In this document: positions 26,008 through 48,257 of the stretch, in pieces | Layout: the number at the start of each line of letters is the position of its first letter | Numbering within the stretch: position 1 is the first letter of the stretch | Assembly (NCBI RefSeq): GCF_012939995.1 | Contig: NZ_SPMZ01000036.1 | Coordinates: 1-64,000 of the forward strand | DNA from: Candidatus Competibacter phosphatis | GTDB taxonomy: Bacteria > Pseudomonadota > Gammaproteobacteria > Competibacterales > Competibacteraceae | DNA length: 64,000 nt | Direction of reading: 5' to 3' | Translations under genes and position numbers: made by a program | The notes under the pieces: model-generated | Seen by the model: the letters and a program-made list of their open reading frames with translations, nothing else | Database searches by the model: none | Told to the model about the DNA's origin: nothing

Positions 26008-28242
<2,235 letters not shown>

Positions 28243-28977: not shown

Positions 28978-30428
28978 TGAAAAAAAAGTATTGTTATATG
29001 TCGGCAATCATTGCTAGCTTTTTATCGGATCATGGGGCTGAATATCCTCTTGATGATGGTCCTTGTACTCGGAGCTTCCTCCTATGTCAGCGCCGATGAA
29101 GGCGTTCAAGGATTGTTTTCTCCAATAACAACCAGTATTTACGGTCGCCGATATAGCAATGCCATCTTGCAGGGCGTGAGCCTGAGCGATGTTTTTTACC
29201 TACAATGATACAGAAACCACAGCGTTTGGACCTGCTTATGCGAATGTCTGGACGAGCCCGTCCAATTTTCTACAATGCAAGCCTCCAACCGGTAGAAAAT
29301 TTTCCTACGCGCTTTGTTATTATTCTGGACCCAATGATCCAACAGGACATAGTTCGGATAACCCATCCCTGCCGTGTACGCTGTCCGATGATGGGATAGT
29401 GGCCAATTGTTCATGTTACGAAATATCGACCGACGATGTATCGCCAAAGATCCCCTATTATGTTGATATTCATGCTATATCCAATTTGGAAATATATAAT
29501 GAAACCGTTGAAACATGTGGGAAGGAAGGAGAAAAGTGTGCCGCTACCGATAGAGATCCGTCCGTGTGTGATGCGATCAACAGCAACCTGTTGGTTCCTG
29601 GCGCAGACCTGATTTCTGTCTTTTCGCCGGTTTTCGCAAGTAATTATTTTACCAAAGGAGAAAATAATTCGACCGCTTGTGTCGATGGGAATGCGGGTAT
29701 TTATGCGGGTTGCATGACCGCGCCTTGTTACCGGACCGGAGAAAAGGATGCCAGTGGTCGTAATATTGTAGAGTGCAAGTGCCCGATTTTTAAAGGACCT
29801 TATCAAGTCGGTCAGGCGAACCAAAGCTGCGACGCCAACGAAACACCCCTCAGCACCACGGTCTCTCGCGACGAAACGAAGAAGATTTGGAAAGCCGCTA
29901 ACGTATGGTCGGCGGCTTACAATCCAGCGGGCGGTCCTATTACGCTTCCAGATGGTGCATGTGTGCCCGATCTTCCGGGGGATAAAGGCTGCGGTCTTTT
30001 CGACCCTCAGAAAGATTACGGAAAAATTATTGATCCTGACAGCGCGCTCTGTAAAAAATGTTTGTAGTGCCTATGAAGGGAGCGTCAATAGTTCTGGTAT
30101 TCAAGTGGGTTATTCGTGCGACGCAACTCTGTGCACGACAACAGGTATTGGACAGGAAAACAACCCCAATTTTCCTCCTTCGCGGAACGCCCAACTCAGT
30201 TTGATGGGTGAAGCATGCAATGGTATCCAAGATACCGATGGCATGAAGCAGATTATATTGGTTGAAGCATTGGCGGAATGTAGTTGCTGTGCCAGTCAGG
30301 TCTGTGGATGCACTAATATTAGTACGACGACCGATCAAACGATCTTTAGTCTGAATCAGCAACAGCGCGATGTGGGCATCCAACCGCAATGCGATCTTAA
30401 CAATACGCTTTGTGGAGAGAGTCAGTAA
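28978..30428 (+). CDS. cysteine-rich secreted protein, several homopolymer frameshifts
   Basis: Three frames join into one protein of about 470 residues. It begins with GTG at 28978 after a good ribosome-binding site, or with ATG at 29032. The first hydrophobic segment GLNILLMMVLVLGASSYVSA is a Sec signal peptide. Breaks: T6 at 29192-29197 (T5 gives SDVFTYNDTETT) and A6 at 30053-30058 (A5 gives ALCKNVCSAYEGS). The GTG start would also need one T fewer in the T5 near 29017. The mature protein has many cysteines, often as CxC (NCSCYE, ECKCPIF, ECSCCASQVCGC), suggesting disulfide-stabilised repeats in the periplasm or outside. I recognise no family. A terminator follows, and base composition is AT-rich. 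Confidence 0.6.
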
Positions 30429-30858: not shown

Positions 30859-33800
30859 CTACCCACCGGCAACAGCCCGACTCACCGCCCGTCGTTCCAA
30901 CCGCCGCAAGCTCTTGAACGCGATAGCTCGAATCGCGCTGTCCTCGTCCTTGTTGGCCAGAATGCCTTGCAACGCGGTTTGCGCCGTTTCGCCGCCCAGC
31001 CGGCCCAAGGCCGCAATCGCGCTTGACCGCGCTGCTGCTTCACTGTTGATCGCCATGGCGCGTTGGATGAGCGTCGCCACCTCCCGCTGTTCCAGATAAA
31101 CCGGCAAGGCGGCTTGCCGCTGCTCGGCGCTGGCTAGCAAGCGGCCATCCGCCTTGGGCAGAACCGCCCGCAGGACTGGACGCAAGGCCGCGCCATCGAC
31201 GCTCTTGGTTCGCTCCAAATGCTGGAGTACGGGCTCGCCGCCCAGCCGGGCCAGAGCGGCGCTGGCCGCCGCACGCACCCCGGAATCGACATCCTCCAAG
31301 GCTTGCAACAGCAAGTTGCTGTCCTTGGCATTGCCGCACTCGGCCAGACAACGAATCGCTTCGCACCGTACCGCAACCGGATGACGAGGATCGGCGAGCG
31401 CAGCCCGCGCTGCGGGCGCGACGGCGAGTTGCAATTGACGGGCAGCCCACAGACTGGCCCGCCAGGCGTGCGCTTCCGCGCCAGCCTGTTCCCACAAATG
31501 CCGTTCGTCGGCCCGTCGCCAACCGTTCGCCGCCCGCTCCAGCGCGGCTTGCACCCCTGCCGCTAAATCTCGGTCGCCACTGTTGCCGGCGATCCAGGCC
31601 GCTTCGGCACGCGTCGCGGCTGCGTCGCTTTGCAGCAGATCGCGCAGCGCGTCGCCGGCGAAAGTCTGGCGGCGGATCAGCCCGCGCCGCAGCCGTTGGC
31701 GAACCTGTTGGTCCTTGACCACGCTCAGCCGCTGGGTCAAGGTGGCGGGGTCGCCCTGCCGGGCCAGGAAGCGGGCGGCAGGTTGGCTGATCTCGGCGTA
31801 TTCGCTGTTCAGAGCCAGCAGGTTGACCTGGGTAGCGTCGGTGGGATAAATCCGTCGTAGCGCCTCCAGACCGGCCTTGCGCAGACCGGCGTCGCGTTGG
31901 TGCAGTAGCGATTCCAGCACCGGTTCGGCGGTGACCGCGCCCAGTTCGCCCAATTCGATGGCGGCCCGCTGCCGGGTGGAGCCGTTTTCGTAAGGATCGC
32001 TGGCGAGGCGTTCCAGCAGGGCACGGCTGCGCTCGTCGCCGACGCGCCGCAAACCGCTCAGCGTCCGCCAGCGCAGTTCGCCCACACCCTCGCGCGCCAG
32101 TCGTTCCAGGTTATCGCGCACCCGCTGGCGTTCGTCGGCGTCGGTCAGTCGGGGCAGCAACGCACCGAGGGCTTCGGCGGCATCCGGGGCCAAGGCGCGG
32201 TCGTCAGCGGGCAAGTCGGCGCGTTGATCGAGCAACGGTTCCAGATATTCCAACGCGCGCCGGTCGCCCAACTCGCCCAGCGCGGCGATGGCGCGTTTGC
32301 GCTCCACCTCCGTGCCAGCCGTGAACGCCAGCAACAGCGGTTGGAAGGCTTCCGGTCGTTGCTGCTTGGCCAAACCTTCGGCGGCGGCCAGCAACAGTTC
32401 GCGGCGGCCGCCGATCAAGGCCCGCGTCAACGGTTCCAAACTCGCGCCCGGCATGCCAGCGACGATACGTTGCGCCAGTTGCGCGCAAGCCAGCGCCCGA
32501 ATCGCCTCGTCGCGGTCGTCCAGCAGCCGGACCAGCAGCGTTTCCGCCGGTTTCGCTTCCAGTACGCCCAAGACTTCGACGACGCGGGTCCGAATCGCAG
32601 CGTTGTCGTGATCGAGCAACGGCGGCAAGGTTTCCAAAGCCAATTCTTCCCGGTAACGCGGGTATTGCCGCCCGTCCGCGCGCTTTTGCTCCGGCTGGAT
32701 TCGGTCGCGCAACAATTGCAACAACACGTCCAAGGCTTGGCTGTGATAAGTGGCTTTGTCCTTGTCCAGCAACCAGCGGCCCAGCAGCGGTGCGGCGGCG
32801 ATGTGGCCGATGCGACCCAGGGCGCGCAGTAGAACCGGACGGTCGGCGGTCAGATCGGGATCGTCTTCCAGGCGCACGGTCACGGCCTCGACCGCCTTTG
32901 CCGCGACCTGTTCATTCGGTCGGGCGTGCGCCAAGACGACCAGCGCCTCCAACGCTCGGTTGGCGGTTCGCGCTTCGCCGTGCAGAGCAGCGGCCAATAC
33001 GTCCAGCGCCAGCGACTCGCCGCGTTGAGCCAAGCCTACGGCGGCGCGCAGGCGCAATTCCTCGTGCTCGCTTTCCAAGGCGCGGCTTAGAGCGGCGGCG
33101 ATGCGCGGATCGTTGGCATCGAGCAAGCGATCCACCACGGTCAGCCGCAGATCATCGTGACGGCTGTTCAAGGCCAGCAACCAGGGTTCCAGACTGCCGG
33201 TGGGATACAGGCGAGGCAGTTGCTCCAGCGCGTGGCGGCGCGTCTCCGCATTGGCGGCATCGACCGCGCCCCGGACCAGTTCGGCGGCGCGCGCATCGCC
33301 GGCTGCGGCCAAAGCCAGCAAACGGTCGAAGGCATTGCGGCCGAGGTCGGCGAAATCGACGTTCAAGGCCAGCGCCAGCGGCTCCAGCGGCTCGCGCGGA
33401 TGCAGTTCGGCCAGCGCGCTCAGCGCCGCCTGCCGCACTAGATGATGCGGGTCGCCCAAAGCTTGACGCAGCACCGGCAACACCGCTTCCCGGCCGATGG
33501 TGGGTTGCTGGGCCAACACCGCGAGACGGGCGATGCTGTCGCGCCGCACCCGTTGATAATCGTCCGGCCCCTTGGCGACCGGCGCTTGCCGAATCAGGCC
33601 GGCATACGTGCCGAACGCGAGCCGCCACAGTTCGGACGCGCTGGCTTGATCTTGCGCTTTGGGCGGTCGTCGCCCGCCACCGGCGAAGCGCAACACCGTC
33701 AGCAGGCGTTGGGTGGCGGAGTTGTTCGGCTGCGGCTTGCGCTGGAACAGACCGCGTATCCAGCCAGTCTTGCGCTCCAGCGGCGTTTCGGCTTCGGGCG

Positions 33801-36800
33801 CGGTTTGCGGTGGGGCCTGATCAGTGGCAATTTCGGCGAGACGCTTCGCCTCGCGCCAGAAGGTTTCCGGTTGCGGGCGCAGGCCGAGCACCTGGGCAGC
33901 GGCGTAGCGCCGGGCTGGGGAATCGCTGGCCAGGGCGTTGACCACGGCGTTGAGCAGACGCGGCCGTTGCGCCGGCTCCGGCCAATTGCGCATATCGCTG
34001 GCTTTCTCCGGCTGGCGCGGCCCGATCAGTTCCAGACCCCATTGCCCCAGGTCTTCGTCGCCCAACCGCGCTTCCAGCACGCGGGCGGCGGCATAGCGGA
34101 TTTCCGGCTGGCCGGCGCTCAGAGCGCTGAGCAGCAAATCCGGCTCCAGTTGCGCTCGCGCCAAGGCAATATCGCGGGCCACGATCACGGTGAAGGTTAA
34201 TTCCTGAAGATCGCGTTCGCGGTCTTCCAAGCCTTGCAGCAAGCCTTGGGCGCCAGCACCGCCCAGCGCGACGAAACTGTACAACGCGCCGCGCCGGATC
34301 GGCAGATGCTCGTGACGTTGGGTGCCGGCCAGCACCGGCAACGCCCGCGCATCGCCCAGCTTCGACAGGCCATCGGCGGCCCAACTGCGCACCGCCAGAT
34401 CGGCGTGAGCCAGGGCGGCGACCAGCGGTTGCTCGTTGCCATTTTGGCAGGCGGTGGCCAAACCCCGCGCGCCGTGTTCCCGCACCAGGGGATCGTCGTC
34501 TCGTAACAAGGTGGTGAAGAATGGAATGCTGGCCGAGTCGCCCACGTCGGCCAGGGCGCTAGCGGCGCGCTGGCGCAGCGCATCGGCGGGCCGGTCACGA
34601 TCGGTCTTGGGAATACTCAGCAACGCCTGCATCGGTCCGACGGCGCGGCTGTCCCGGCGCTTGCCGCACAATTCCCCGGCGCGCACCCGCAGCAGATAAA
34701 ACGGGCTGTCGAAGGCGAGGGCGAACGCTTGCGCGTCGTTGGGCAGCAGTTTGTCGAGCGCTTCGATGGCGGCGAGGAACTGAGGCGCTTCCTCGGTTTG
34801 CAACAGTTCGATCAAACGGTTCCGCAGCGGGGCCGGGTCGGTCGCTTCCAGCGCGCCTTTCGAACCGGCCAAGCGGACTTCGGCAGCGGGCGAATTGAGC
34901 GCCGCTAGATGGTAATTGGCGCGTTTCTTGTCGGCGTCTTCCTTGGTCAGAGCCTCGTAGGCGGCCAAGCCGACTTCGGCGGCGCTGTCGCCAACTCGTT
35001 CGATCAGCAATTCCCTGGCCCAGGCGCGCGACTGGCGGGCTTGGCGAGCCAGTTCGTCCACGGCCCAGCGGCGCACGTCGGGATGCACCGAGGCGACCGC
35101 CCGGCGCAGGGTGGTTTCCGGGCGCTTGCTGTGCCAGGCCCACAACGTCCGCATGGCTTCCCGGCGCACGTTCTCGGCTTCGTCGTCCAGAGCGTGGCCG
35201 AGTAACCCGTCGATGCGGGTGGCGAGTTTGTTTTGGGCAGTCGCACCGTGCTTGACCAGCAGTTGCAGGGCGCGGGTCCGAATTTCGCCCGCCTGCGTGC
35301 GTAGCGCCAGTTCAGCCAGATCGATCTCGCCGGCTGGGCCTTCCGGCTCGGCCAATTTGATCAGCCCGTCGAACGCTTCGGCACGGACTTGGGCGTCGTC
35401 GTCGTTCAACAGCCATTGCAGGCGCAAGCGCAAGCGCCGGTCGCCCGCCAGATTGATGATCGCGTTGGCCATGAAACGGGTGACCAGCCGCCGTGTCCCG
35501 GCTTCCAGTTCTCGGCTGAGTTGCAGCAAGGCGCCGCTGGCGCGGTCGTCGCCGAGCCAGCTCAGACACAGGACGCTTTGCAAGGCCATGTCCGGTTGAC
35601 GGCAAACCAGAGCGGTGAATAGCGGTTCTAGGTCCGATTCGGTCGGGGCTGTGCCGGTGGTGGTTGCCGCGCCTTCGATGCCGAGAGCGGCATATTCGTC
35701 CAGTATCTTGGCGATATCGGGGCCGCTGGCGCGCAGGTTGGCAACCAGCGCTGGGTGGACCGCGACCGCGATCCAAAAGGCCGCGTGACGGACCGCGAAC
35801 GTGTCGTCATTGATTGCCTGGCCGAGCAACTGGCGGCCCTGTGGCGTGGCATTCAATTGCCGTCGCCCCAGCCGGATCAAAACCGCGCGGCGGATATCAG
35901 CGGAACCGCGCTCGAACGCACCGCGCAGGGGTGCAACGCCGGCCTCAGGGTCCAGGGTCAGCAAACCATCGAGCGCGGCTTCGCGGACGTTGGCGTCCGA
36001 GTCGTTCAGCCGCTCGTTCAGCAGTCTCGGCACCAGGGGCGATGCTTGGCGCAATGCGGTCAGGCGTTGCACCGCATCGAGCCGAATGTCCGGGTGCCGG
36101 CTGCCCAGCGCCAGTTGCAGGGCGTGCAGGGGCGTTTCGGCGTCGATTTGCTCCAGCGCTTTCAGCGCGGCCTTGCGCACGCCGACATGGTCGTCGTTCA
36201 ACGCCTTGGCCAGTGTCGGTCGGCTGCGGCGGCGTTGGCTGACACCCAGCTTTTGCGCGGCTTCAATGCGTTGCCCCGGCCGGGAGTCCTGACCGAGCAC
36301 GTATTCCAAACCTTCCCGCGCCTCGTCCTCGGCCAGTTGCGCCAAAGCGTCCAGGGTGGCCGAGGAGGAGCGGTTCGCCTTAACCTCGTCGAGCAGTCGT
36401 TGCAGTCGGGAGTCCCAGGTTTCGGCGCTACCGGATGGATTGCCGTTTTGATCGACCGGACTGAGCCAAATCAACCGATTTTCCGTGACCGCGACCAGCA
36501 AGCCGCCGCGCTGTTCCGGTTTGGCCTGTTGCAGTGGTTCGAACAGCGCCAGTGCGCTGGCGTTGCGTCCGACGGGGATAGTGCGCGGCTTGCGGCGCTG
36601 ATCCAGCGTCCAGACCTTGAGTTCGCCGTCCTCGCCGAGCGAGAACAAGCGGCGGGGAAGGGGACGGCCCTGCTCGTCATTCAGTGCCGCGCTGAATAAT
36701 AGGCCGCGCACTGGACCCTGATGGGCGGCATCGCCGCTGCGATTTTCTTCGTCGATGGCCCCTTCCAGGAAGCAGACCCGGATTGAACCATCGCCGCAGC

Positions 36801-37413
36801 CGGCGACGATCCGCCCGTCGCCGGTGAAAGCCAAGGCAAAAATGCCACGCTCGCCGCAGGGCATGACACGGGGTTCGGCGTCGCTCAGTTGGGCCAGCGG
36901 CAGAACGTAAATGGTGTTATCGGCGCCAGCGGCAGCGACGCTGCCACTCGCTGGGTCCAGCGCGACGGCGCGTAGCGGCTGTTCGCTCAAATGGCGCTTG
37001 GCTTGCTCGCGCAGGCGCGGCCGGTCGCCGTCCATCTCAAGGGTGTGCAGTGCTAGCACGCCGTCATCGCCGATGCTCAAAACCTGCGAGTCGGACGTAA
37101 CCAGCGCCCGCACCGCGCCGGTGTGAACAGCCTGCTGCCAATCCGGGGTTTTGCCTTCGCCGCTGGTGCGCCAAATGGCCAAATCGCCCTTGACGGTTCC
37201 AGCCAGCAATAGATCATCGTTGCAAAAGGCCAGCGCGGTTGCAACGGCGTCCAGCGGGGCGCTGAATCGCAAGTTCAGCTTGGGCAATTGCAGCAGATGA
37301 ATGCCGGAGTCGGTGACACCCACCGCATCGCGGCGACCGCCGACCGCAAGGAGTTTGCCGCTGGCGGCGACGGCTAATAAGCGTTCGATGTGGGGCGCGT
37401 ATTGTTTAGCCAC
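30859..37413 (-). CDS. giant WD40 plus HEAT-repeat protein
   Basis: A 2184-residue protein from GTG at 37413, which has AAGGAG 9 bases upstream; an upstream ATG at 37449 lacks this. Residues 1-330 form a WD40/beta-propeller-like region with short repeats ending in phrases such as LAGTVKGDLAIWR, IVAGCGDGSIRVCF and SLGEDGELKVWTLD. From about 370 to the end it is a long solenoid of HEAT/PBS-lyase repeats, e.g. DDHVGVRKAALKALEQI, NDSDANVREAALDGLLTL and HHLVRQAALSALAEL. No catalytic motif, signal peptide or membrane helix is visible. It looks like a sensor or scaffold. A second HEAT protein and a retron lie upstream on the same strand beyond a toxin-antitoxin/DUF262 block, so it may be a separated member of that system. 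Confidence 0.85.
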   Translation of the reverse strand: MAKQYAPHIERLLAVAASGKLLAVGGRRDAVGVTDSGIHLLQLPKLNLRFSAPLDAVATALAFCNDDLLLAGTVKGDLAIWRTSGEGKTPDWQQAVHTGAVRALVTSDSQVLSIGDDGVLALHTLEMDGDRPRLREQAKRHLSEQPLRAVALDPASGSVAAAGADNTIYVLPLAQLSDAEPRVMPCGERGIFALAFTGDGRIVAGCGDGSIRVCFLEGAIDEENRSGDAAHQGPVRGLLFSAALNDEQGRPLPRRLFSLGEDGELKVWTLDQRRKPRTIPVGRNASALALFEPLQQAKPEQRGGLLVAVTENRLIWLSPVDQNGNPSGSAETWDSRLQRLLDEVKANRSSSATLDALAQLAEDEAREGLEYVLGQDSRPGQRIEAAQKLGVSQRRRSRPTLAKALNDDHVGVRKAALKALEQIDAETPLHALQLALGSRHPDIRLDAVQRLTALRQASPLVPRLLNERLNDSDANVREAALDGLLTLDPEAGVAPLRGAFERGSADIRRAVLIRLGRRQLNATPQGRQLLGQAINDDTFAVRHAAFWIAVAVHPALVANLRASGPDIAKILDEYAALGIEGAATTTGTAPTESDLEPLFTALVCRQPDMALQSVLCLSWLGDDRASGALLQLSRELEAGTRRLVTRFMANAIINLAGDRRLRLRLQWLLNDDDAQVRAEAFDGLIKLAEPEGPAGEIDLAELALRTQAGEIRTRALQLLVKHGATAQNKLATRIDGLLGHALDDEAENVRREAMRTLWAWHSKRPETTLRRAVASVHPDVRRWAVDELARQARQSRAWARELLIERVGDSAAEVGLAAYEALTKEDADKKRANYHLAALNSPAAEVRLAGSKGALEATDPAPLRNRLIELLQTEEAPQFLAAIEALDKLLPNDAQAFALAFDSPFYLLRVRAGELCGKRRDSRAVGPMQALLSIPKTDRDRPADALRQRAASALADVGDSASIPFFTTLLRDDDPLVREHGARGLATACQNGNEQPLVAALAHADLAVRSWAADGLSKLGDARALPVLAGTQRHEHLPIRRGALYSFVALGGAGAQGLLQGLEDRERDLQELTFTVIVARDIALARAQLEPDLLLSALSAGQPEIRYAAARVLEARLGDEDLGQWGLELIGPRQPEKASDMRNWPEPAQRPRLLNAVVNALASDSPARRYAAAQVLGLRPQPETFWREAKRLAEIATDQAPPQTAPEAETPLERKTGWIRGLFQRKPQPNNSATQRLLTVLRFAGGGRRPPKAQDQASASELWRLAFGTYAGLIRQAPVAKGPDDYQRVRRDSIARLAVLAQQPTIGREAVLPVLRQALGDPHHLVRQAALSALAELHPREPLEPLALALNVDFADLGRNAFDRLLALAAAGDARAAELVRGAVDAANAETRRHALEQLPRLYPTGSLEPWLLALNSRHDDLRLTVVDRLLDANDPRIAAALSRALESEHEELRLRAAVGLAQRGESLALDVLAAALHGEARTANRALEALVVLAHARPNEQVAAKAVEAVTVRLEDDPDLTADRPVLLRALGRIGHIAAAPLLGRWLLDKDKATYHSQALDVLLQLLRDRIQPEQKRADGRQYPRYREELALETLPPLLDHDNAAIRTRVVEVLGVLEAKPAETLLVRLLDDRDEAIRALACAQLAQRIVAGMPGASLEPLTRALIGGRRELLLAAAEGLAKQQRPEAFQPLLLAFTAGTEVERKRAIAALGELGDRRALEYLEPLLDQRADLPADDRALAPDAAEALGALLPRLTDADERQRVRDNLERLAREGVGELRWRTLSGLRRVGDERSRALLERLASDPYENGSTRQRAAIELGELGAVTAEPVLESLLHQRDAGLRKAGLEALRRIYPTDATQVNLLALNSEYAEISQPAARFLARQGDPATLTQRLSVVKDQQVRQRLRRGLIRRQTFAGDALRDLLQSDAAATRAEAAWIAGNSGDRDLAAGVQAALERAANGWRRADERHLWEQAGAEAHAWRASLWAARQLQLAVAPAARAALADPRHPVAVRCEAIRCLAECGNAKDSNLLLQALEDVDSGVRAAASAALARLGGEPVLQHLERTKSVDGAALRPVLRAVLPKADGRLLASAEQRQAALPVYLEQREVATLIQRAMAINSEAAARSSAIAALGRLGGETAQTALQGILANKDEDSAIRAIAFKSLRRLERRAVSRAVAGG

Positions 37414-37531
37414 GGCGTGCGGCTCCTTGGAAAATTTACAAACTAACAAAAGGTCGTATTGGAGAAAATCGTTTTAGACTTGATTTTTCTTCAGCATACA
37501 TGCCTAGCCAGCAAGCTATTGGATCGTTTAT

Positions 37532-39224
37532 TTACTCCGCAACTGTTCCATCCTCTTCATAATCATCCTTTAGTTTTGATTGTAAGCTTTTGTCTACATC
37601 CTGCTTAATGATTCTTTTTTTCAAGCTCGGTACTTATTCGATCTACACGGTTCTGGAAGAACAAATCATAATTATCATTCCATACACCAAATTTATCTAG
37701 ATCGTCAATAAAATGAGATTTCATGGTGTCGGAGAGTATTGCATTTGTTTTTTTTGAATTTCTTCATGTATTTTTGATGGAGGTTTTGCGCCAATTTTCT
37801 CTTTTATTGAGAAAATCATCTACAATTGTTATATTTAGTATGTGATTAATGTAGGATTCTTCTATATTGCGATTTCTCAAATATGCTCTTGGGAAAAAAG
37901 TGATGATAATTTTTTGCTGTTAGCCTGTTTTTAACCAATAATTACTTATATTAACGATGGAATCATCCACGAACGATTTTGGTTGCTGATAAGCGTAAAT
38001 ACATAGAATTGCCTTTATATAACTTCGGCCAGCGCTAAACCATCCATTCTCAATTATGAAATTGGGAGATGTGTCGATTGGCCAGTCATATGAAGGCAAT
38101 TTTTCAAGTAAAATATCATCTATTCTTTTGATGTCTTGAGCCAATTTGCTCTCTACAGCAGAAGAATACCGTCCTGACAAAGAGCAACGCCAAAAGAAAT
38201 CCTGTAGATATTTCTGCTTATTGCCAGTAGGCTTATCTTTGTTTTTGAAGAAAAAAATATGAAAATGGGACTATCAATGCATTGTATGGCAATAATTGCG
38301 AGACGGGTATTCGGTAAAAATTTCTAAAATATTCAACTGTTCGTTCTATTGCATCTATCGCTTCATCCCATATTGATATAAATTCATTTTTATCTAACTT
38401 GAGAATTACCTGTCTTTTGCACTCACCAGCTATGATCATTGAAATCGTTTGTAATACAGTTGCATCTGGTACGGTTTCATAGTCGAATGGTTTAAGGTTA
38501 TCAATCAACTGCTGATATTTTTTCTGAAAGATCAAAATTCTTCTCAAAGTCGAATGTTTTTTGCGACCATTATTTCAAACAAAAGAGAGCGGCTTGCCGC
38601 CAACATTAATTCTAGTGAAAATCTCTGTTGCAATATCTATTTCAGCGTCTTTAATCTGAATAATTGGGTATTGATAGCTTTCAATTCTGCTTTTTATACA
38701 ATTTTCAGTTTTTTCATGATACTTTTTGTGGATAAGAAGCGAGTACAGTAAAATCACCTGTCAATAGGTCAAGAACAGTTATATATGTTTTTTTCATCTT
38801 CTGTTTCTTTTTTTTTCAGCAGAAACTATCTGTTCGTTTTCTTCAGATTCAAGATTGATAAATATTTTTGAGAAATCATCAAATGATTTTCCGTTCTCTC
38901 TGTTTAGGCAAATACCTTTTAAGCAAGCAAATAGGCTTGTTAGTCTTTGTTGTCCATCAAGGACATAATCTATTGCCTCACCCTTTTCAGGATCGGGTAG
39001 TTTTTTGATTGCCTATGTTTCTAACTGAACGCAGTCTTTCTTTAGTCCTCCAAAATATAAATGTCCCAATTGGGTAACCTTTCAATATACTATCAATTAA
39101 TCCAGCCGATTTTTGAACTGTCCATACAAAATCCCTTTGGAATTGAGGTATTTTGATTTGTCCTTTTTTCAATTTCAGAAATAAGGCTTGAGAAAGTTCT
39201 TGTTTGAGGTTCTGGTAATTTCAT
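37532..39224 (-). CDS. DUF262 (GmrSD-like) protein broken by many frameshifts
   Basis: An AT-rich gene of about 560 codons, readable only by changing frame several times. It starts MKLPEPQTRTFSSLISEIEK, and with A5 instead of A6 at 39164-39169 continues into GQIKIPQFQRDFVW, SILKGYPIGTFIFWRT and DYVLDGQQRLTSLFACLKG, the ParB-like DUF262 core. The C-terminal half contains EIFTRINVGGKPLSF and ends DDYEEDGTVAE at the TAA 37532-37534. DUF262 proteins act in DNA defence (GmrS-like NTPase/nuclease of modified-DNA restriction; BrxU). Each break seen lies in or near an A or T run, so it could be intact in the cell. Otherwise it is a pseudogene. Confidence 0.65.
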
Positions 39225-39255
39225 TATATTTTCCTTTAAATTATTTCTGTGAAAC

Positions 39256-39492
39256 CTAATCTTGGTATGAGGTTAGAATTAAAAAAACTATATTAATATA
39301 TTCTACCTGACTAGAAGGTTCTGGAATCGGTAAGCCATCCTCTCGCATACCATGTAAATGCAATTGGATAGCCTCCTGAATTTGCGTTTCTACTTCTTCA
39401 AGAGTTTGGCCAGTCACTATACAACCAGGAAGATCGGGGATATAGTCCGCATAATTTCGTTCCGCTTTTTCGATTAATACCGCATAACGCAT
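39256..39492 (-). CDS. HicB-family antitoxin, solitary
   Basis: A 78-residue protein with the HicB partial RNase-H-like fold: MRYAVLIEKAERNYADYIPD, LPGCIVTGQTLEEVETQIQE, AIQLHLHGMREDGLPIPEPS. The last dozen residues (after SSQVEYI) look foreign. There is no C-terminal DNA-binding domain. No hicA-like partner adjoins it directly; the next upstream gene is a complete hicAB unit. It may be an orphan antitoxin or a leftover of a second module. Confidence 0.8.
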   Translation of the reverse strand: MRYAVLIEKAERNYADYIPDLPGCIVTGQTLEEVETQIQEAIQLHLHGMREDGLPIPEPSSQVEYINIVFLILTSYQD

Positions 39493-39527
39493 GGGAAAAC
39501 CTCATCACTTTTTCATACCTGTTCGCT

Positions 39528-39953
39528 TCAAGCCACTTCCCGCATAGGCCGAATCCGTGGTGGCGGTAATTCTCGGCCTTCCTTGACGAAATGCTGAATC
39601 ACATCCTCTATGACTTCACATAGCTCGCTATAAAGCTGTGTCGGGCTATCGCCATGAATTCCTGTGATTAAATCTGGACATTTACCGACATAGGTTTGAT
39701 CTTCTTCGCTCCATTCAATCCACTTATGGTACTGGTCGCTTACTTTCATTTTTTTCACGCTCTCTATCGCCTGATTGACTTGCTTTTCTTGGTAATGTTT
39801 TGCGTCATCTCCGGATTGGCCGCTGACGGTTACCGCACCGGCATATTTGGAATGAATGAATTTTCGATGCGAACCTTTGCCGCCACCTACTATTTCACTG
39901 AATCCGGCGTCTTTCAAATTCTGAATCAGATCTCTAATTTTCTTCGGCATCAT
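39528..39953 (-). CDS. hicAB: HicA toxin and HicB antitoxin, fused in this sequence
   Basis: Residues 1-65 are a HicA double-stranded-RNA-binding-type mRNA interferase (MPKKIRDLIQNLKDAGFSE, then GGKGSHRKFIHSKYAGAVT with the catalytic histidine). Residues from 69 are a HicB antitoxin (MKVSDQYHKWIEWSEEDQTY, GKCPDLITGIHGDSPTQLY). They are joined in frame by VKK. The joint contains an A7 run (T7 at 39749-39755 on the plus strand). With A6 the toxin would end VKK-TGA and the antitoxin would start at the overlapping ATGA, the usual hicAB arrangement. I therefore think these are two coupled genes made to look fused by one extra base. Confidence 0.8.
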   Translation of the reverse strand: MMPKKIRDLIQNLKDAGFSEIVGGGKGSHRKFIHSKYAGAVTVSGQSGDDAKHYQEKQVNQAIESVKKMKVSDQYHKWIEWSEEDQTYVGKCPDLITGIHGDSPTQLYSELCEVIEDVIQHFVKEGRELPPPRIRPMREVA

Positions 39954-40023
39954 GCATTGCTTATGAGCTCACTGTATGCTTGGCCTCCACAAGAGAAGCG
40001 TGTTGGCTTGGAGGCATATATCC

Positions 40024-40551
40024 CTATAACTTCCCTGCGGCCACGAGCGCCGCTTGGAGAGTGGCGAGTGGAAGAAGGAGCGAAAGCGGTTGATCGACAA
40101 GAGGCGCCGCGCCGTAACGTTCGTACCAGCGAGCGACCGAAGCACTCTTGGCATCGATGAGCAGGGCGACGCCCCCAACTTCGCTGGCGGCGAGGAGACA
40201 GCGCCGGCCGGCCAAGAGCAATAGTTGCCCGCCCAATCCATGGCCCTGCCAGGCGCGGGCGACCGCCAGTCGCCCGAGACGAAACACCGGCACGTCATAG
40301 CGGGCGAGTCCCCGTCGGATCATCTCCGGCGTGCGCGCGTAGGCCACCGAAGCGGGGCTCAGGCTGTAGAAGCCGAGCACGCTGTTCACTTCGGCATCGG
40401 CGACCGCCAGAAAGGTCTTGGCGCCGCCCCGTTCGTGGCTCTTGCGGGCATGGTGGCGCAGAAAGTCGTTCAAGGCGGGTTCGCCGCAATCAAACCTTTC
40501 CCGGTCATGATGCCTGCCGATCGATTCTTCGTGCCACGGCGGCAGGGTCAT
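40024..40551 (-). CDS. tacT: TacT-like GNAT acetyltransferase toxin
   Basis: A 175-residue GNAT N-acetyltransferase of the toxin class that acetylates charged tRNA. Family features: opening FDCGEPALNDFLRHHARKSH, GFYSLSPASVAY, RLGRLAVARAWQGHGLGGQL (acetyl-CoA-binding pyrophosphate loop Q/R-x-x-G-x-G/A) and the catalytic-tyrosine region SVARWYERYGAAPLVDQP near the C-terminus. It overlaps the upstream DUF1778 antitoxin gene by 4 bases, the standard TacAT order. Confidence 0.9.
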   Translation of the reverse strand: MTLPPWHEESIGRHHDRERFDCGEPALNDFLRHHARKSHERGGAKTFLAVADAEVNSVLGFYSLSPASVAYARTPEMIRRGLARYDVPVFRLGRLAVARAWQGHGLGGQLLLLAGRRCLLAASEVGGVALLIDAKSASVARWYERYGAAPLVDQPLSLLLPLATLQAALVAAGKL

Positions 40552-40841
40552 GAGGGGTTTGGCAGGGCTTCCGCCGCCGCGAGCAGCCGGGCGTTGGGCG
40601 CCGGCGGCTGTTCCAGGACCGCGAGCACCCGCAGGCTGTCCCGCTCGGACAGTGGCACGCGCTCGGCCTGCTCGATCACGGTTTTCGCCGCCTGCAACGC
40701 CGTGCGGATCACGAAATCGGTGAGATCGGTGTTTTCCAGGGCCACCGCCCGCATCAGCACGGCTTTGTCTTGAGCGCGAATCCGCAAGGATAGACGACTG
40801 TTGTCTTCAACCATCACTCTCGGCATGGCTTTCTCCGGCAT
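40548..40841 (-). CDS. tacA: TacA-like DUF1778 antitoxin
   Basis: A 97-residue ribbon-helix-helix antitoxin (DUF1778). RLSLRIRAQDKAVLMRAVAL forms the DNA-binding N-terminus, with NTDLTDFVIRTALQAA following. The tail LSERDSLRVLAVLEQPPAPN is the segment that usually wraps the GNAT toxin. The ATG at 40841 or the one at 40826 could be the start. As a type II module it probably represses its own promoter. Confidence 0.88.
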   Translation of the reverse strand: MPEKAMPRVMVEDNSRLSLRIRAQDKAVLMRAVALENTDLTDFVIRTALQAAKTVIEQAERVPLSERDSLRVLAVLEQPPAPNARLLAAAEALPNPS

Positions 40842-40903
40842 AGTACTGTTTCAAAGCGTACGAAAATTCCGCTCAAAGAGGAAGCGACATTCCCAGGAAG
40901 CAG

Positions 40904-40960
40904 GTCGCACAGCTTGTGCGACATTGTCGGGCTCGAATTCGTGCCACAGCTTGCGGCACG
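40904..40960. repeat. two adjacent palindromes with a shared AGCTTG loop
   Basis: GTCGCACA-GCT-TGTGCGAC (40904-40922) is a perfect 8-bp stem. CGTGCC and GGCACG (40940-40945 and 40955-40960) form a second stem 17 bases later. Both enclose an AGCTTG-like core. They lie between tacA and the stop of the HEAT-repeat gene. They could be REP-like elements or a terminator for the retron operon, though no T tract follows on either strand. Confidence 0.45.
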
Positions 40961-40996
40961 AAGAGGCTTGGTCGAAAAAATGAAATAGTCTGTCCC

Positions 40997-43879
40997 TCAC
41001 GCTGTCCTTGCCCTCAGATTCACCTGTCCCACTGGCAAATCCACTCGAATCGCCGGATGTACCCGCCGAATTTGCACTAGCGCGGCGACGCAATGTTGCC
41101 ATTCATTCTTGGCGCGAGAATGGCGGAATTCCGCCAGCACCGGTGTCACCAACTCCGCGAAACCGGCATCGCTCAGGGCTAGCGTTTTGATGGCTTCAAT
41201 CAACCGACGTTTGCCGACGCTGGCTGGCCACGGCCGTTCGGGCGCGGCTTGGTTGGTGTCCAACTCGCGCCGTTCCATCCGACCGGGCGGTAGGCCAAAC
41301 AAAGTCTTGCGCAGAAATCGACGCAATCCTTCGACTGGAGTGCTGGGCTGGGGCTCGGTGGCCTTCGCGGTCGGCACGAATTTCCGGCGCTGACGTTCCC
41401 ACAATAGGCGAACGGTGAACAGCCCAACCTCGCGGTGCGGGCTTTCCATCAGCCAGGCCAGCCGCGCCGGATCGCTGAGTTGCTCCTGATGGCGACGGAT
41501 CAGGGTCAGCGCCGTTTCGCGGGTGATCTTGTGGCGGCTTTCGGCCAACTGAAACACCCGTTCCGGCAACAGCCATTCGACCGGCAGGGCCGGTTCCATC
41601 GAGCTTTCCCCTAAGTGCAACAACTGTTCGATGGCAAAGGCACGGGGTTCACGGTGTTCGCTGTCGGCCAGTCGATAGAGGAGGGCCGGCTCGTTCCAGG
41701 CGCGCAATTCCTCCCGCGCGATGGCGACCGCCAGCCGGCGCAGATCAGGCCGTTGATCGGCAAACAGCGGCCGCAGCCGGCTCGACGGATAATCGGCGGC
41801 GGTCAAGCCGGGTTGGATATTGAAGGCGCGCGTTTCGGGATCGCTGGGGCCGATTTTCGGATGATGGGCCTTGAGATAGGCGGCGGCGAAGTGGCGCACC
41901 GGTTCCGGTTGGGTGGGGCCGCAGGCCAGTTCCCACAGGTGATCGATTCCGCTGCGCTCGCCGCTGGCGAAATCGTCGGGCCGGAAGGATTCCAATAGAT
42001 AGCGGTGGGCGAAAGCGTGCAGGGTCGAATCGGCCTGCCGCGCCATCGCCAGCAGCCAGGGCAGCCCGACGCGGCTCGGTGCGACCAGCTCCGAATCGCC
42101 GAGCAACTGGAGCGCGAGCAGGCGCAGCGCCGGACGCATGGCGAGGCCTTTGAGCCACTCGACATCCAAATCCTCGCCTTTGAATTTACCCTGCCGCAAC
42201 CAACCGGCCACGGCATCGCTCAGATGAGGATTCAATAAGGCTTGCTGCATCCAATCCGAGCCGATCTCGCGTCCCGAATAACCCGCTAGTGTTTTAAGCA
42301 CTCGCTGGCGGGCAATGGCGGTACAACGTGGATCGTCCAATACCTGACGGTAGTAAGCAGCGGGGACCGTAACCTTTGCGTCCCGATAGAATTCGAGTAC
42401 GGCATCGAGAGCGGAAGCGCCCCCTCGTTGGGAAAGATTATTGAGGATGCGCTCGAAATCGGCATTTTGAACGCCTTGTTGAATGAGCCCCATGATGTGT
42501 TGTATTTGACGTTCGACAGTGGCGTTTTGCGAACCGGAAGGGGCGAGGGCTACTTCGACGAACTGTTCGGCGGTGATGTCCTGGGGCCGGAAACCTTGCT
42601 GCAATTTGGCCTTGGCGAGAGCGGCGCTGGCTGGCACCGTCAATAATATGAGCAGGGTCGGCAAGCCCAGTTCGGCCGGTTTCCGTTGTTCGAGCAGGGC
42701 GATGGCAAAGGTCCGCGCGTCCTGTGCGCCTTCCCGCACCAGCTTGACCAGTTCGGCGACGGGCAGGTCGGTGGCGTAGGCGCGGGCGTAGTCGATGGCG
42801 TAGCGGCGGGCCGGGCTGTTGCCGCTGTACAGCAATCCCAACACCATGTCGTGCAAGCCGAGTTGCTTCAGTTTCGATTGGTGGAACTCGGGATTGTCGC
42901 GCAGTAGTTTGATGATGAAGTCGTGCACGATGTCCAGCCGCTTGGCGCCGAGGCGGGCCAGCCAAGCCGGTTCGACATGGCGCAGGGTGTCCTTGAAGTC
43001 CTGCTCCAGCCCGCGAATGGCGAATTCGCAGACTTGCGGGTTTTGGGCATCCTCCAGCAACCGCAACAGCGGCGCGGGACTGATTTTCCAGGCATCGTCG
43101 AAGGCGCGATGCTCCAGTTTGGCCGGCAGACCGCTGCTGCCCAATAGACCTTGATCGGTAGCGCCGATCAGGTCCTTGTGTCGCCAAATCTGATTGGCGA
43201 TCCAGCAGTGGCGGAAGTTGCACTGAGACGGGTAGTGACGCAAGACTTGGCCAGCGTACACCGGAAACAACTCCGGCAGGACTTGACCGAGTTGCCGCAG
43301 ATAGCGCCAAGCGCGACGACGCATGTACAACCAGGTGCCGCGCGAAATGTCTCCTTCGCCCAGTTTGGCTTGGTCGTCCAGGCGATAGCACAGAACGCCC
43401 AGCATGGCGAGGTCGTGGTGCTGTTCGGCCTGCTTGTAAATGCCCTTGATACCTTGCCAGATGCCCCAACCGATGGCGTTTGGCGGCAGTTGGGGAATCA
43501 GTTCCAACAGCAGGGCACGGGCCGGTTCGTCGTCGGCCGTATATAAATCCAGCAACAGTTGGCCTAAGCGCAGGCGCGGCGGCGGGTTGGGCGAGGCCAG
43601 CAGCGCGGCCCAGGCGCCGGTGCGCGTCGCTTGACGTTCATCATCGGTTTTGCCGGCCAAGGCTTGCGGGTTCAGACTTTGGCGCAAGCGATCCAACGAC
43701 CAGGCATCGGGCGGCAAAGGTTGGGCCTGATAGTCGTCCGGCGGGTCTTCCGGCTGGCCGGCGGGCGGGTCGGGCTGCGCGAGAAATTCCAGAATCCACG
43801 GGACGAATTGTGGATCGCGCCGGGCGGCGGCGTATTCCAGATCGGTGAACAGAATGGAGCGGTCGTCGGCCATGAGCAT
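40997..43879 (-). CDS. HEAT/ARM-repeat protein of the retron locus
   Basis: A 960-residue soluble protein (958 if it starts at the second ATG at 43873). It opens DDRSILFTDLEYAAARRDPQ and is helical throughout. HEAT-like repeats are clearest in the second half, for example LRRLAVAIAREELRAWNEPA, HREPRAFAIEQLLHLGESS and HKITRETALTLIRRHQ. No enzymatic motif, membrane helix or signal peptide is visible. It starts 3 bases after the stop of the WGR gene, and WGR overlaps the reverse transcriptase, so the three are one translationally tight operon. In the retron class I know as type XIII an ARM-repeat protein accompanies the RT; this is the obvious candidate. Its repeat style resembles the giant WD40-HEAT protein downstream. 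Confidence 0.85.
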   Translation of the reverse strand: MLMADDRSILFTDLEYAAARRDPQFVPWILEFLAQPDPPAGQPEDPPDDYQAQPLPPDAWSLDRLRQSLNPQALAGKTDDERQATRTGAWAALLASPNPPPRLRLGQLLLDLYTADDEPARALLLELIPQLPPNAIGWGIWQGIKGIYKQAEQHHDLAMLGVLCYRLDDQAKLGEGDISRGTWLYMRRRAWRYLRQLGQVLPELFPVYAGQVLRHYPSQCNFRHCWIANQIWRHKDLIGATDQGLLGSSGLPAKLEHRAFDDAWKISPAPLLRLLEDAQNPQVCEFAIRGLEQDFKDTLRHVEPAWLARLGAKRLDIVHDFIIKLLRDNPEFHQSKLKQLGLHDMVLGLLYSGNSPARRYAIDYARAYATDLPVAELVKLVREGAQDARTFAIALLEQRKPAELGLPTLLILLTVPASAALAKAKLQQGFRPQDITAEQFVEVALAPSGSQNATVERQIQHIMGLIQQGVQNADFERILNNLSQRGGASALDAVLEFYRDAKVTVPAAYYRQVLDDPRCTAIARQRVLKTLAGYSGREIGSDWMQQALLNPHLSDAVAGWLRQGKFKGEDLDVEWLKGLAMRPALRLLALQLLGDSELVAPSRVGLPWLLAMARQADSTLHAFAHRYLLESFRPDDFASGERSGIDHLWELACGPTQPEPVRHFAAAYLKAHHPKIGPSDPETRAFNIQPGLTAADYPSSRLRPLFADQRPDLRRLAVAIAREELRAWNEPALLYRLADSEHREPRAFAIEQLLHLGESSMEPALPVEWLLPERVFQLAESRHKITRETALTLIRRHQEQLSDPARLAWLMESPHREVGLFTVRLLWERQRRKFVPTAKATEPQPSTPVEGLRRFLRKTLFGLPPGRMERRELDTNQAAPERPWPASVGKRRLIEAIKTLALSDAGFAELVTPVLAEFRHSRAKNEWQHCVAALVQIRRVHPAIRVDLPVGQVNLRARTA

Positions 43880-43882
43880 CGC

Positions 43883-44341
43883 CTATTGAGGCCGGTAGCC
43901 TTCGGCTTCCAAGGCCGCCCGGACTTGGGCAAAGGCGGCTTCGGCGGCGGAGGGGTCGGGGTAGTGTTCCACGCCGTGAGTGTGCAGCGCGTTGCCTTCC
44001 ACGCTCAGGCGCAGTTCCAGGCGACGTTCGCCCAACATCAGAACCAGCGTGCATTGCGAGGGGGCGGGGGCGGTGGACGATGGTTCGGTGACAGCGGATG
44101 ACGCAACCGTTTCGCTTGGACCGCCGTCGCCGTCCACGTAGCCTTTCTTGTATTTTTCCCGCGCCTGTTTTTCCAGTTCCCGCGCCGCATCTTCCGGCGA
44201 ATCGTAGCGTTTGGCTTGACTTTGCCCCTGGCTACCGATCCGGCCGAAATTGACTTCCAAGTTGTTGCCGATACAGCGCGCACGCCAGAACTTGTTGGAT
44301 TTGCTGTCCTGAAAGATCAGGGAAACTTGCCACTCACTCAT
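43883..44341 (-). CDS. WGR-domain protein of the retron locus
   Basis: A 152-residue protein. Residues 1-75 are a WGR domain: FQDSKSNKFWRARCIGNNLE, then VNFGRIGSQGQ in place of the canonical W-G-R, and YDSPEDAARELEKQAREKYK. WGR domains bind nucleic acid ends in PARPs and occur alone in bacterial conflict and repair loci. After a Ser/Thr-rich linker, residues 95-152 form a second small domain (LVLMLGERRLELRLSVEG to ALEAEGYRPQ) that I do not recognise. The ATG at 44341 lies inside the last codons of the RT gene (8-base overlap), so translation is coupled. It could present the retron msDNA or its ends to the HEAT protein; this is inference. Confidence 0.88.
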   Translation of the reverse strand: MSEWQVSLIFQDSKSNKFWRARCIGNNLEVNFGRIGSQGQSQAKRYDSPEDAARELEKQAREKYKKGYVDGDGGPSETVASSAVTEPSSTAPAPSQCTLVLMLGERRLELRLSVEGNALHTHGVEHYPDPSAAEAAFAQVRAALEAEGYRPQ

Positions 44342-45636
44342 CCGTGCCACGCTCCTCCAGTTGTTTGAGTTGCGCCAGAAACGGTTTGGCCCGCTCCGGG
44401 TCGGTCATGTGCAGAAAGGCGACCCAGCCCCGCAGTTGCGCCAGACTTTCACCTTCCTTACCGGGTTTGCCGTTCAACCGATTGTGCAGAGCGGCGCGCA
44501 GGCGTCGAACCTGGGCGCGCGGCACTCGCGCCGGACTGCCAGACGGCGTTTCGTTAACCACCAGACCCGTCACGGTTTGCCGGCGGCCTCGGCGCAGAAT
44601 CCGGGTTTTTTCCGGGTGGGGGACAAAGCCTTCGGCCTTGAGAATCATGCGAACGCAACGCAACAAGCGACCCAGCGGCGGTGGTTCTGCCTCGTGCCAG
44701 GAAAAGGTCAGATCGTCGGCGTAACGGGTGTAGCGGAATCCCAGTTTTTGGCTCAGGCCGGACAGGCGGCAATCCAACCGCAGGCAAACGGTGTTACTGA
44801 GGGCGGGACTGGTCGGCGCACCTTGCGGCAGGGCGCGCGGCCCGCTGGCGACATGGACATGCTGGCCGTCGAGTGGCAGCAGTTCACGCGGTGCTTCGGT
44901 ACAGAGCAGAGCCAGCACGGTGGCGACCTGTTCGCCGTAGCCGCCCTTACGGAATAGGCCCTTGACCCGCCGCCAAGTCACGGTGGGATAGAAATGGCGG
45001 ATGTCGAGTTTGACGATGGTGTATGCGCCAGCGTGGACGGCGGCATTGCTGAAGATGCTGCGTCCGGGTAGGAAGCCGTGCGCGGCGCCGTGCACCGGCA
45101 GGCGTTCGGCAATCTGGCGCAAGATCCAGCGTTGAGTCTTTTTTCAGCGTCGGCTTGGGCGCGCTGATCAGGCGGGCGCCGCCGTCGCGTTTGGGGATGG
45201 TCCAATATTGATAGTGGCTGCCGCTGTCCACTTCGCGGTGGAACGCCAGCCAACGCAAACGGGGAATGGACAAATCGAGCGCCTTGGCGAGGGCTTGGGC
45301 GTCCTTGATTTCCGGCAGGGCATTGGTTTCGCGCCGGGTTTCGGGATCAGGCAGGTCGTAGCGGTCTTGGTCTGGCGTGTCGTGATGGAACACGTCCGCG
45401 CCGAGGTGGACCAGATGGGCTTGGCGGAAAGCGGTCCACGCTTGCTGGCGCAACTGCTTGCGGACTCGCCGCTCTTCTTCCCGTCGCGCTTTGTACTGGT
45501 GGAGGGCGGCGCCGGTCAGCTTGGCGGGGTCGGTCGCCTCGTCCAACAGACCCAATTGTCGTAGCCGGGCGACGACCCAGCGTTCGATATCGCCGACTTG
45601 GGCGATGTCTTCCCAGGTGGGGGGTGTCTCGCTCAT
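44334..45636 (-). CDS. retron reverse transcriptase, frameshift at an A6 run
   Basis: About 433 residues after joining two frames. An N-terminal extension of some 110 residues precedes the RT core. Core motifs: YWTIPKRDGGARLISAPKP, FLPGRSIFSNAAVHAG (the retron-specific NAxxH), catalytic A motif VKLDIRHFYPTVTW, B motif LPQGAPTSPALSN, C motif YTRYADDLTFSW and VTGLVVNE (the retron VTG). The frame breaks in the A6 run (T6 on the plus strand, 45139-45144). A5 joins PTLKK to TQRWILRQIAERLPVHGAAH, restoring a normal finger region. It should copy the msd part of the RNA encoded just upstream, priming from the 2'-OH of the msr branch guanosine. Its stop overlaps WGR. Confidence 0.92.
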
Positions 45637-45680: not shown

Positions 45681-45707
45681 CAAACCGCTACTTCTCACAA
45701 GGGACAC

Positions 45708-45835
45708 GGTAGGCTCACCGGCCAGCCGCCGGTAACCGTCCCTAGTTGTTGGCGGAAACCGCGGTGGCGTGGTTGGCCCAGCTCCGCCAACAACTAGGGA
45801 CGGTTACCGGCGAAGCTGGCCAAGAACAGCCTACC
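45708..45835 (-). repeat. long msd hairpin with a perfect 29-bp core stem
   Basis: Arms 45728-45756 and 45783-45811 are perfect 29-base inverted repeats around a 26-base loop (45757-45782). The stem extends outward as two further paired blocks: GGCCAGC (45720-45726) with GCTGGCC (45815-45821), and GGTAGGCT (45708-45715) with AGCCTACC (45828-45835), separated by small bulges. The stem is too long and lacks a T tract for an ordinary terminator. It is the expected template hairpin for msDNA. Confidence 0.85.
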
Positions 45836-45900
45836 TTGTGGCGTGTGTGGCGTTGGAATTCCCGGACGGCGCAACGCCGCCCAAACGGCTAATGGAGGAA

Positions 45901-45928
45901 CGCCTCACGCTCCAGCAATCATTACGCT
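45901..45928 (-). repeat. retron a1 arm (5' end of msr)
   Basis: A 28-base sequence complementary to 45653-45680, with a single mismatch at the eighth base. Pairing of the two arms closes the msr-msd RNA and positions the branch G for priming. Confidence 0.82.
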
Positions 45929-45929
45929 A

Positions 45930-45952
45930 CGGACTTTTCGCTCCCTTGTCAA
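45930..45952 (-). promoter_or_regulatory. candidate promoter of the retron RNA
   Basis: A perfect TTGACA (45952 to 45947 on the minus strand) is followed after 17 bases by TAGCGT, a weak -10 box that overlaps the beginning of a1. A start of transcription would then fall inside or just before the a1 arm, as retrons require. The -10 match is poor, so confidence is low. Confidence 0.4.
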
Positions 45953-45986: not shown

Positions 45987-47786
<1,800 letters not shown>

Positions 47787-48257
47787 TGGGTATCGGACCT
47801 TACACGAGAGTTTGTTCGAAGCTTGAGGTTTCGCCATGCTGGTACGGCGATGGCGCATGGCAAGAAAATTATAGTACGACAGTGTTGTGAAAGGTGTTTG
47901 CTCGGTTTCGGGGCAACTCGCGCATGATCGAGCAAATTGCCGAAGCCTGGCTGCTGGTGGAGGATGACGACCACCGCCAACGAATTCCTTCCGCCGATTG
48001 GGTTGTTCTCCGCCAATCCCCGAGACGCCCGCATTTTGCGCGATCGTTGTCAGCCGCGCACCAATTAAGCGCAAAAATCCGTGTCAGCCGGATAAGTTAT
48101 TGATCATCTAATTGATTTAAAATTAATTTTATCGCAGTTTCGAAATTTGCTAATTTGCACCCGCTTTATCCTTTAACGATCCTGTTGCGACCCGAAATGG
48201 GGCGAACAATCCCGATGAATCGAATAATCCTAACAGAACGAATCGAGATGACGATCC
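47787..48257. promoter_or_regulatory. divergent region between the SWIM gene and amtB
   Basis: About 470 bases with no recognised gene; the in-frame extension of the SWIM protein to 48074 is unlikely to be translated. On the minus strand TATAAT occurs at 47873 to 47868 and may be the -10 box of the retron operon, though no good -35 is seen 16-18 bases before it. The AT-rich stretch 48100-48180 probably contains the amtB promoter; I looked for a sigma-54 site (GG-N10-GC spacing) and did not find a convincing one. Confidence 0.45.

Follow-up and report, generated by a model that had tools for sequence, protein, structure and literature searches.

The 64,000-nucleotide (nt) stretch of Candidatus Competibacter phosphatis DNA analyzed here (contig NZ_SPMZ01000036.1, positions 1 to 64,000; hereafter the window) carries, at 30859..37413 on its minus strand, a gene for a 2184-residue protein with a β-propeller and a long α-solenoid of HEAT repeats, which we call the giant. 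With a probability of roughly 80%, the giant serves as a dedicated structural subunit in a single subtype of the type XIII retrons, composed of a short reverse transcriptase (RT), an msr-msd-like RNA, a SWIM-domain protein, a HEAT/ARM-repeat protein (ARM) and the giant itself. Retrons are DNA-making bacterial systems with an established or suspected role in phage defense. Membership of the giant in the retron system is very likely; that it works as a scaffold, which is argued by analogy, is only somewhat better than an even bet.

The presence of the giant tracked that of the RT in two bacterial families. Among 39 Competibacteraceae genomes (G000-G038), strong matches to the PADLOC RT_XIII model occurred in 13 and strong giant matches in 16, and all 13 lay within the 16 (hypergeometric probability 7e-8, relatedness being ignored). 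Matches to the giant's PADLOC model, PDLC02919, of under ~82 bits were counted as generic HEAT/WD40 proteins rather than as giants, and the G029 giant, matched in pieces (its contig has runs of N), was counted as present. Nine of the 13 RT-bearing genomes had SWIM-RT-WGR-ARM-(cargo)-giant, or as much of it as the contig held, on a single contig (G000, G002, G016, G019, G023, G025, G028 and G038, and G029 from the tail of ARM onward); the contigs of G001, G003, G024 and G027 end within ARM or the slot that follows it. In the second family, f75 (63 genomes; an order-level search gave the same 63), the giant was present in nine genomes. RT_XIII took two forms there, a short one (open frames of ~430-441 aa) in nine genomes and a long one (~520-664 aa) in 16, the G802 RT, partial at a contig edge, and an additional weak match in G810 being left unclassed; the short-RT genomes were exactly the nine with a giant. 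Two genomes, G823 and G830, hold both forms, and the giant accompanies the short one. These correspondences (13/13 and 9/9) support the original prediction, which had cast the giant as a possible displaced retron partner.

The f75 operons also provided the homologues that the original prediction had suggested looking for, namely giants directly beside the retron with no toxin–antitoxin (TA)/DUF262 block. The f75 giant operon is compact, in the order ARM-giant-SWIM-RT, and ARM and giant genes overlapped or lay ≤9 nt apart at all eight readable junctions from the nine genomes; in G795 the RT is on a separate contig. The f75 giants are 21-24% identical to the window giant.

A phylogeny of 37 RTs, 20 giant-linked and 17 not, was built with 20 of the 22 giant-linked RTs (the split RT of the window and that of G795 were left out) and 10 of the 16 long f75 RTs. 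All 20 giant-linked RTs formed one clade (support 97/97) in a tree shared with the long RT_XIII proteins, and giant linkage required one change on this tree versus 12.6 in shuffles. Pairwise distances of the giant correlated with those of ARM, SWIM and RT within f75 (r 0.97-0.99, 15 pairs); the correlations were lower within the Competibacteraceae (ARM 0.84, SWIM 0.49, RT 0.58; 10 pairs). We therefore propose a giant-bearing subtype defined by a short RT (ORFs, i.e. open reading frames, of 428-469 aa) that forms one clade and occurs with the giant. An RT clade that travels with a 2,100-2,200-residue scaffold would make a testable subdivision of type XIII, and the compact f75 operons suit cloning.

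The two families also have a predicted RNA in common. About 300 nt between the SWIM and RT genes, with long inverted repeats, is kept across nine Competibacteraceae sequences; its fold was 11.3 standard deviations better than those of shuffled sequences (z = -11.3), and two-sided compensatory changes were seen at 11 pairs. The f75 SWIM and RT genes adjoin each other, and in this family a similar ~230-nt RNA begins 352-510 nt upstream of ARM in seven of the eight upstream stretches, those in which both ends were found; the f75 giant consequently comes after the predicted RNA and before the RT. With a sequence profile of the seven f75 RNAs, the window was hit at 45938-45697 (E 7.6e-13), as was the equivalent position in all five other Competibacteraceae loci searched; nothing significant came up in the long-RT loci covered by the search. 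A related msr-msd-like RNA is thus predicted in both families, its position having moved. In Rfam no retron family matched; the hairpin drew only microRNA models below threshold, which we read as chance.

The giant gene at 30859-37413 proved real and intact, as originally predicted. A mechanical ORF rule gave 37449..30859 on the minus strand (2196 aa, TTG start); the GTG at 37413, with AAGGAG just 5' of it, is the start that fits the earlier bounds of 2184 residues, and VAKQYAPH also opens the ORF of the giant homologue in G004. The remaining five frames over the gene contain 22 to 52 stops each. The median ratio of nonsynonymous to synonymous substitution rates (dN/dS) was 0.138 (28 pairs from eight Competibacteraceae sequences), and this purifying selection supports a real gene. 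Pfam identified HEAT_2 (E 6.7e-81) and, more weakly, propellers at residues ~71-330, and PDLC02919 (HEAT-ARM_XIII) matched the protein over its full length (residues 15-2192, 1,236 bits). When the giant was modelled as two overlapping halves with 16 homologues each (predicted local distance difference test score, pLDDT, 76.1 and 76.3), strands at 69-332 formed a propeller and helices continued up to the C-terminus, residues ~1135-1266 being poorly predicted. The best PDB matches of the models were scaffolds and carriers, namely CAND1, karyopherins, SF3b and the PP2A A-subunit, eukaryotic HEAT proteins that have a general solenoid shape in common with the giant; the TM-scores by query length (0.09-0.26 among the matches shown) point to repeat likeness rather than kinship. 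Pfam found HEAT repeats and propellers, and no enzyme family, in the giants of the window and of G112. On these models the giant is probably a propeller joined to a long α-solenoid without a recognized enzyme domain, and so a predicted scaffold. The original prediction had seen HEAT repeats of the same style in the giant and ARM; BLAST gave no significant match between the two (best E 0.016), and their kinship was not borne out.

In the window the order is SWIM-RNA-RT-WGR-ARM-cargo-giant, with the SWIM, RT, WGR and ARM genes upstream of the giant and all on the minus strand:

45987..48074, minus strand: SWIM-domain protein (SWIM_XIII; PADLOC PDLC02972, 479 bits)
45697..45938, minus strand: predicted msr-msd-like non-coding RNA with long inverted repeats (alignment, fold, profile match)
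44947..45636, minus strand: N-terminal part of the RT, in another frame, RT_XIII model positions 17-169 (PADLOC)
44334..45122, minus strand: C-terminal part of the RT, RT_XIII model positions 176-426 (PADLOC)
43883..44350, minus strand: WGR-domain protein of 155 aa (PF05406)
40997..43879, minus strand: ARM, a 960-aa HEAT/ARM protein (PADLOC HEAT-ARM_XIII, PDLC02921, 835 bits)
37450..40996, minus strand: cargo slot with TA and defense genes, GC 43.6% (gene calls, Pfam, GC)
30859..37413, minus strand: giant, 2184 aa, β-propeller and HEAT α-solenoid (PADLOC HEAT-ARM_XIII, PDLC02919; Pfam; structure models)

With ARM ending at 40997 on the same strand, the ARM-giant gap measures 3.5 kb, in line with the placement of the giant downstream of ARM in the original prediction. 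The true start of the window SWIM gene is probably near 47.8 kb; SWIM ORFs of relatives are 599-622 aa. The RT_XIII model PDLC02956 matched both RT halves (364 and 115 bits), and the long WGR_XIII model of PADLOC matched only ARM in the window, partially (129 bits), despite the separate WGR gene.

The cargo slot contains, by position:

40548..40841, minus strand: TacA1 antitoxin (PF08681)
40024..40551, minus strand: TacT-like GNAT acetyltransferase (sub-threshold GNAT Pfam matches)
39528..39953, minus strand: HicA fused in one frame with a small HicB-like gene, the two being separate in relatives (Pfam, relatives)
39256..39492, minus strand: HicB-like antitoxin (PF15919)
38987..39172, minus strand: remnant of a GmrSD_N (DUF262) gene (PF03235, 49.2 bits)

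The frames are broken also in the sequence neighboring the GmrSD_N remnant, down to ~37.5 kb. The DUF262, HicB, HicAB and TacAT genes described in the original prediction were found, and their different composition was evident (GC 43.6% versus 66.9% for the giant and 62.2% for ARM); what was read as a HicAB pair is a single reading frame.

In the window, this block occupies a cargo slot that is low in GC and varies in content. Cargo was present between ARM and giant in all nine Competibacteraceae operons that had both genes on one contig (edge slots in G001, G003, G024, G035 and G036 were only inspected), with slot lengths of 0.7-3.5 kb and GC of 0.40-0.51 versus 0.66-0.70 for the giant. Pfam, run on part of the small slot ORFs, assigned HicA in G000, G002, G016, G025 and G029, a HicB-like gene in G000, G019 and G025, and Excalibur in G002, G016, G019, G023 and G029; TacA, GNAT and the broken GmrSD_N were in the slot of G000, and TIR_2, AIPR and PIN occurred in single slots (G028, G029 and G038, respectively). 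A TA or defense-type gene was thus recognized in eight of nine slots, that of G023 having Excalibur and a small ORF without assignment, and all Pfam-assigned cargo lay on the operon's strand. The corresponding position was empty in the eight readable f75 operons. Several contigs break in the cargo slot (slots in L003-L014 and L072), as if repeated DNA were there.

The original prediction held that the operon had been split later by inserted modules. The cargo-free f75 junctions agree with this, and low GC and changing content favor insertion of the cargo, although two families are too few to prove which state came first. An unsplit ARM-giant operon was not seen among the nine readable Competibacteraceae operons, and since every one of these has cargo in the slot, the window block is no recent accident. 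The ARM-giant slot is a defined site inside a retron where TA and defense genes gather.

The accessory modules differ between the families. A BRCT-like segment in the f75 ARM exceeded the Pfam cut-off in three of eight proteins, fell just below it in three, was weak in one and was absent from one; it was not found in the four Competibacteraceae ARMs tested with Pfam. In the three above cut-off (L116, L128 and L129) it spans about residues 630-718, in operons without a detected WGR gene, and scanning f75 giant operons with a WGR profile turned up no such gene. WGR may have been exchanged for BRCT. In PARP and ligase-type proteins, BRCT and WGR are tied to DNA-end sensing, and their alternation here would be compatible with a role in sensing DNA breaks or the ends of multicopy single-stranded DNA (msDNA). 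An f75 giant operon such as that of G112 (locus L061) therefore resembles the window in its ARM, giant, SWIM, short RT and related RNA, but differs in its order, RNA-ARM-giant-SWIM-RT, in lacking cargo and a WGR gene detectable by profile, and in the BRCT-like segment inside ARM.

The distribution of the giant is narrow: it was found in 3/369 genomes of a class-wide sample (G000, G112 and G723) and in 1/398 of a phylum-wide sample, the window's own. The phylum sample added three full-length RT_XIII matches (G169, G281 and G334), all long. No giant matched on plasmids, and 50 pattern matches in viral contigs yielded none that was confirmed.

Four window proteins match PADLOC type XIII models (RT PDLC02956, SWIM PDLC02972, ARM PDLC02921, giant PDLC02919), and the full-length PDLC02919 match means that PADLOC already ties a giant-type protein to type XIII retrons. 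A literature search, which did not cover the founding classification paper (Mestre et al. 2020), turned up no work on type XIII retrons; searching PMC12548924 for the terms XIII, SWIM, WGR and WD40, and PMC13405049 for type XIII, gave no hits. Three things are new: the proposed subtype that carries the giant, an operon that is permuted between the families yet keeps a related RNA, and the cargo slot.

Several observations weigh against a dedicated retron subunit. Long-RT type XIII loci do without the protein: no giant was found in the fetched stretches around the long RT_XIII of G169, G281 and G334, or in the neighborhood read in G040, so type XIII retrons in general do not depend on the giant. 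The window differs from these loci outside f75 in its giant, separate WGR gene, cargo slot and broken RT; two of them, G040 and G281, were run through PADLOC, and in both its WGR_XIII model hit the ARM-like protein. The window RT is frameshifted, its frame breaking ~490 nt into the gene, so that this copy may be dead or misassembled. All 12 RTs of the other Competibacteraceae have open frames, and the C-terminal part in the window keeps a low dN/dS relative to them (0.07-0.10), which points to a recent break or an assembly error. The giant models are of middling confidence (pLDDT 76; predicted TM-score, pTM, 0.45-0.46). Lastly, the giant occurs without a strong RT_XIII match in G004, G035 and G036. 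The giants of G035 and G036 sit on short contigs; that of G004 (L069, C311, 7860-13384) has 7.8 kb upstream without retron genes, the genes there being unrelated and metabolic, and its contig ends inside the giant. G004 was among the 14 loci of a search by name, in which 13 records were named Competibacteraceae, Contendobacter or Competibacter and the other (L006), named Phycisphaerales, was placed in the window's genus. For G004, a genuine exception, a rearranged locus and a chimeric contig are all conceivable.

These giant-only genomes, together with the constant separation of giant from ARM by cargo in Competibacteraceae, could mean that the giant is an independent defense or housekeeping scaffold that merely shares a defense island with the retron. 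This is most improbable. The three genomes are among the less complete (82, 73 and 58%), RT and giant presence match in 9/9 f75 and 13/13 Competibacteraceae genomes, and the f75 giant abuts ARM and SWIM within the operon, which largely refutes the idea; we set it aside. Giants consistently without RT, SWIM or WGR genes, which the original prediction had named as contrary evidence, were not the pattern: these three genomes apart, giants were not regularly without an RT.

Apart from RT, Pfam recognizes no enzyme domain among the core proteins put to it, and the system raises the question of what a retron does with no recognized toxin among its proteins. One answer would make the cargo the effectors, with interchangeable TA toxins, TIR, AIPR or GmrSD proteins held by an ARM-giant scaffold. 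The lack of a recognized enzyme other than RT in the tested core proteins would suit this, as would the recognizable TA or defense-type genes on the operon's strand in eight of nine slots. TA genes, however, gather in many genomic islands, the window's GmrSD gene is broken, the G023 slot has only Excalibur and a small ORF, and the eight cargo-free f75 operons imply that the core does without cargo, which weakens this idea to an unlikely one. Its fuller version is hardly better placed: a Competibacteraceae plug-in platform in which RT-msDNA and the ~240-kDa giant with ARM, WGR and SWIM would sense infection, and slot genes (HicA, TacT-like, PIN, TIR, AIPR, GmrSD) would serve as swappable effectors. 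It is similarly doubtful that the giant is itself the effector, with a toxic activity hidden from sequence comparison. Among the conserved proteins specific to the giant-bearing subtype none is larger, but its models show only a propeller and helical repeats, Pfam gives no enzyme family, and its best PDB matches are scaffolds and carriers.

For the giant as a structural subunit, the working model borrows from retrons studied in depth, in which, as described in PMC13158370, an RT-msDNA complex restrains an effector until a phage factor acts on the msDNA. The likeness to the Retron Eco8/Ec86 supercomplexes covered there is confined to this working model of msDNA-RT checking an effector; those retrons have an enzymatic effector, whereas none is recognized in the putative giant-bearing complex. 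The RT would make msDNA from the msr-msd-like RNA. By analogy, the solenoid and propeller of the giant might join RT-msDNA, ARM and the modules that bind nucleic acid (SWIM with either WGR or BRCT, depending on the family) in a complex that stays silent. Were a phage factor or a nuclease to alter msDNA or DNA ends, this complex would be released or rearranged, and the infected cell would stop. Sensing of an invader protein by the giant, which the original prediction suggested, is conjectural. In Competibacteraceae, the ARM-giant gap would have become a landing slot for TA and defense genes sharing the operon's strand.

The surroundings of the cluster vary. Beyond the giant's end, two lower-GC ORFs (29189-30428, plus strand) have relatives close to the giant in just one of the loci compared, L011. 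The cluster is flanked by katG (26053-28242) and an ammonium transporter gene (48258-49577), one or other of which is shared by L003, L063, L014 and L008; other relatives have other neighbors. A tandem array at 58147-58704 comprises 2.9 copies of a 195-base unit.

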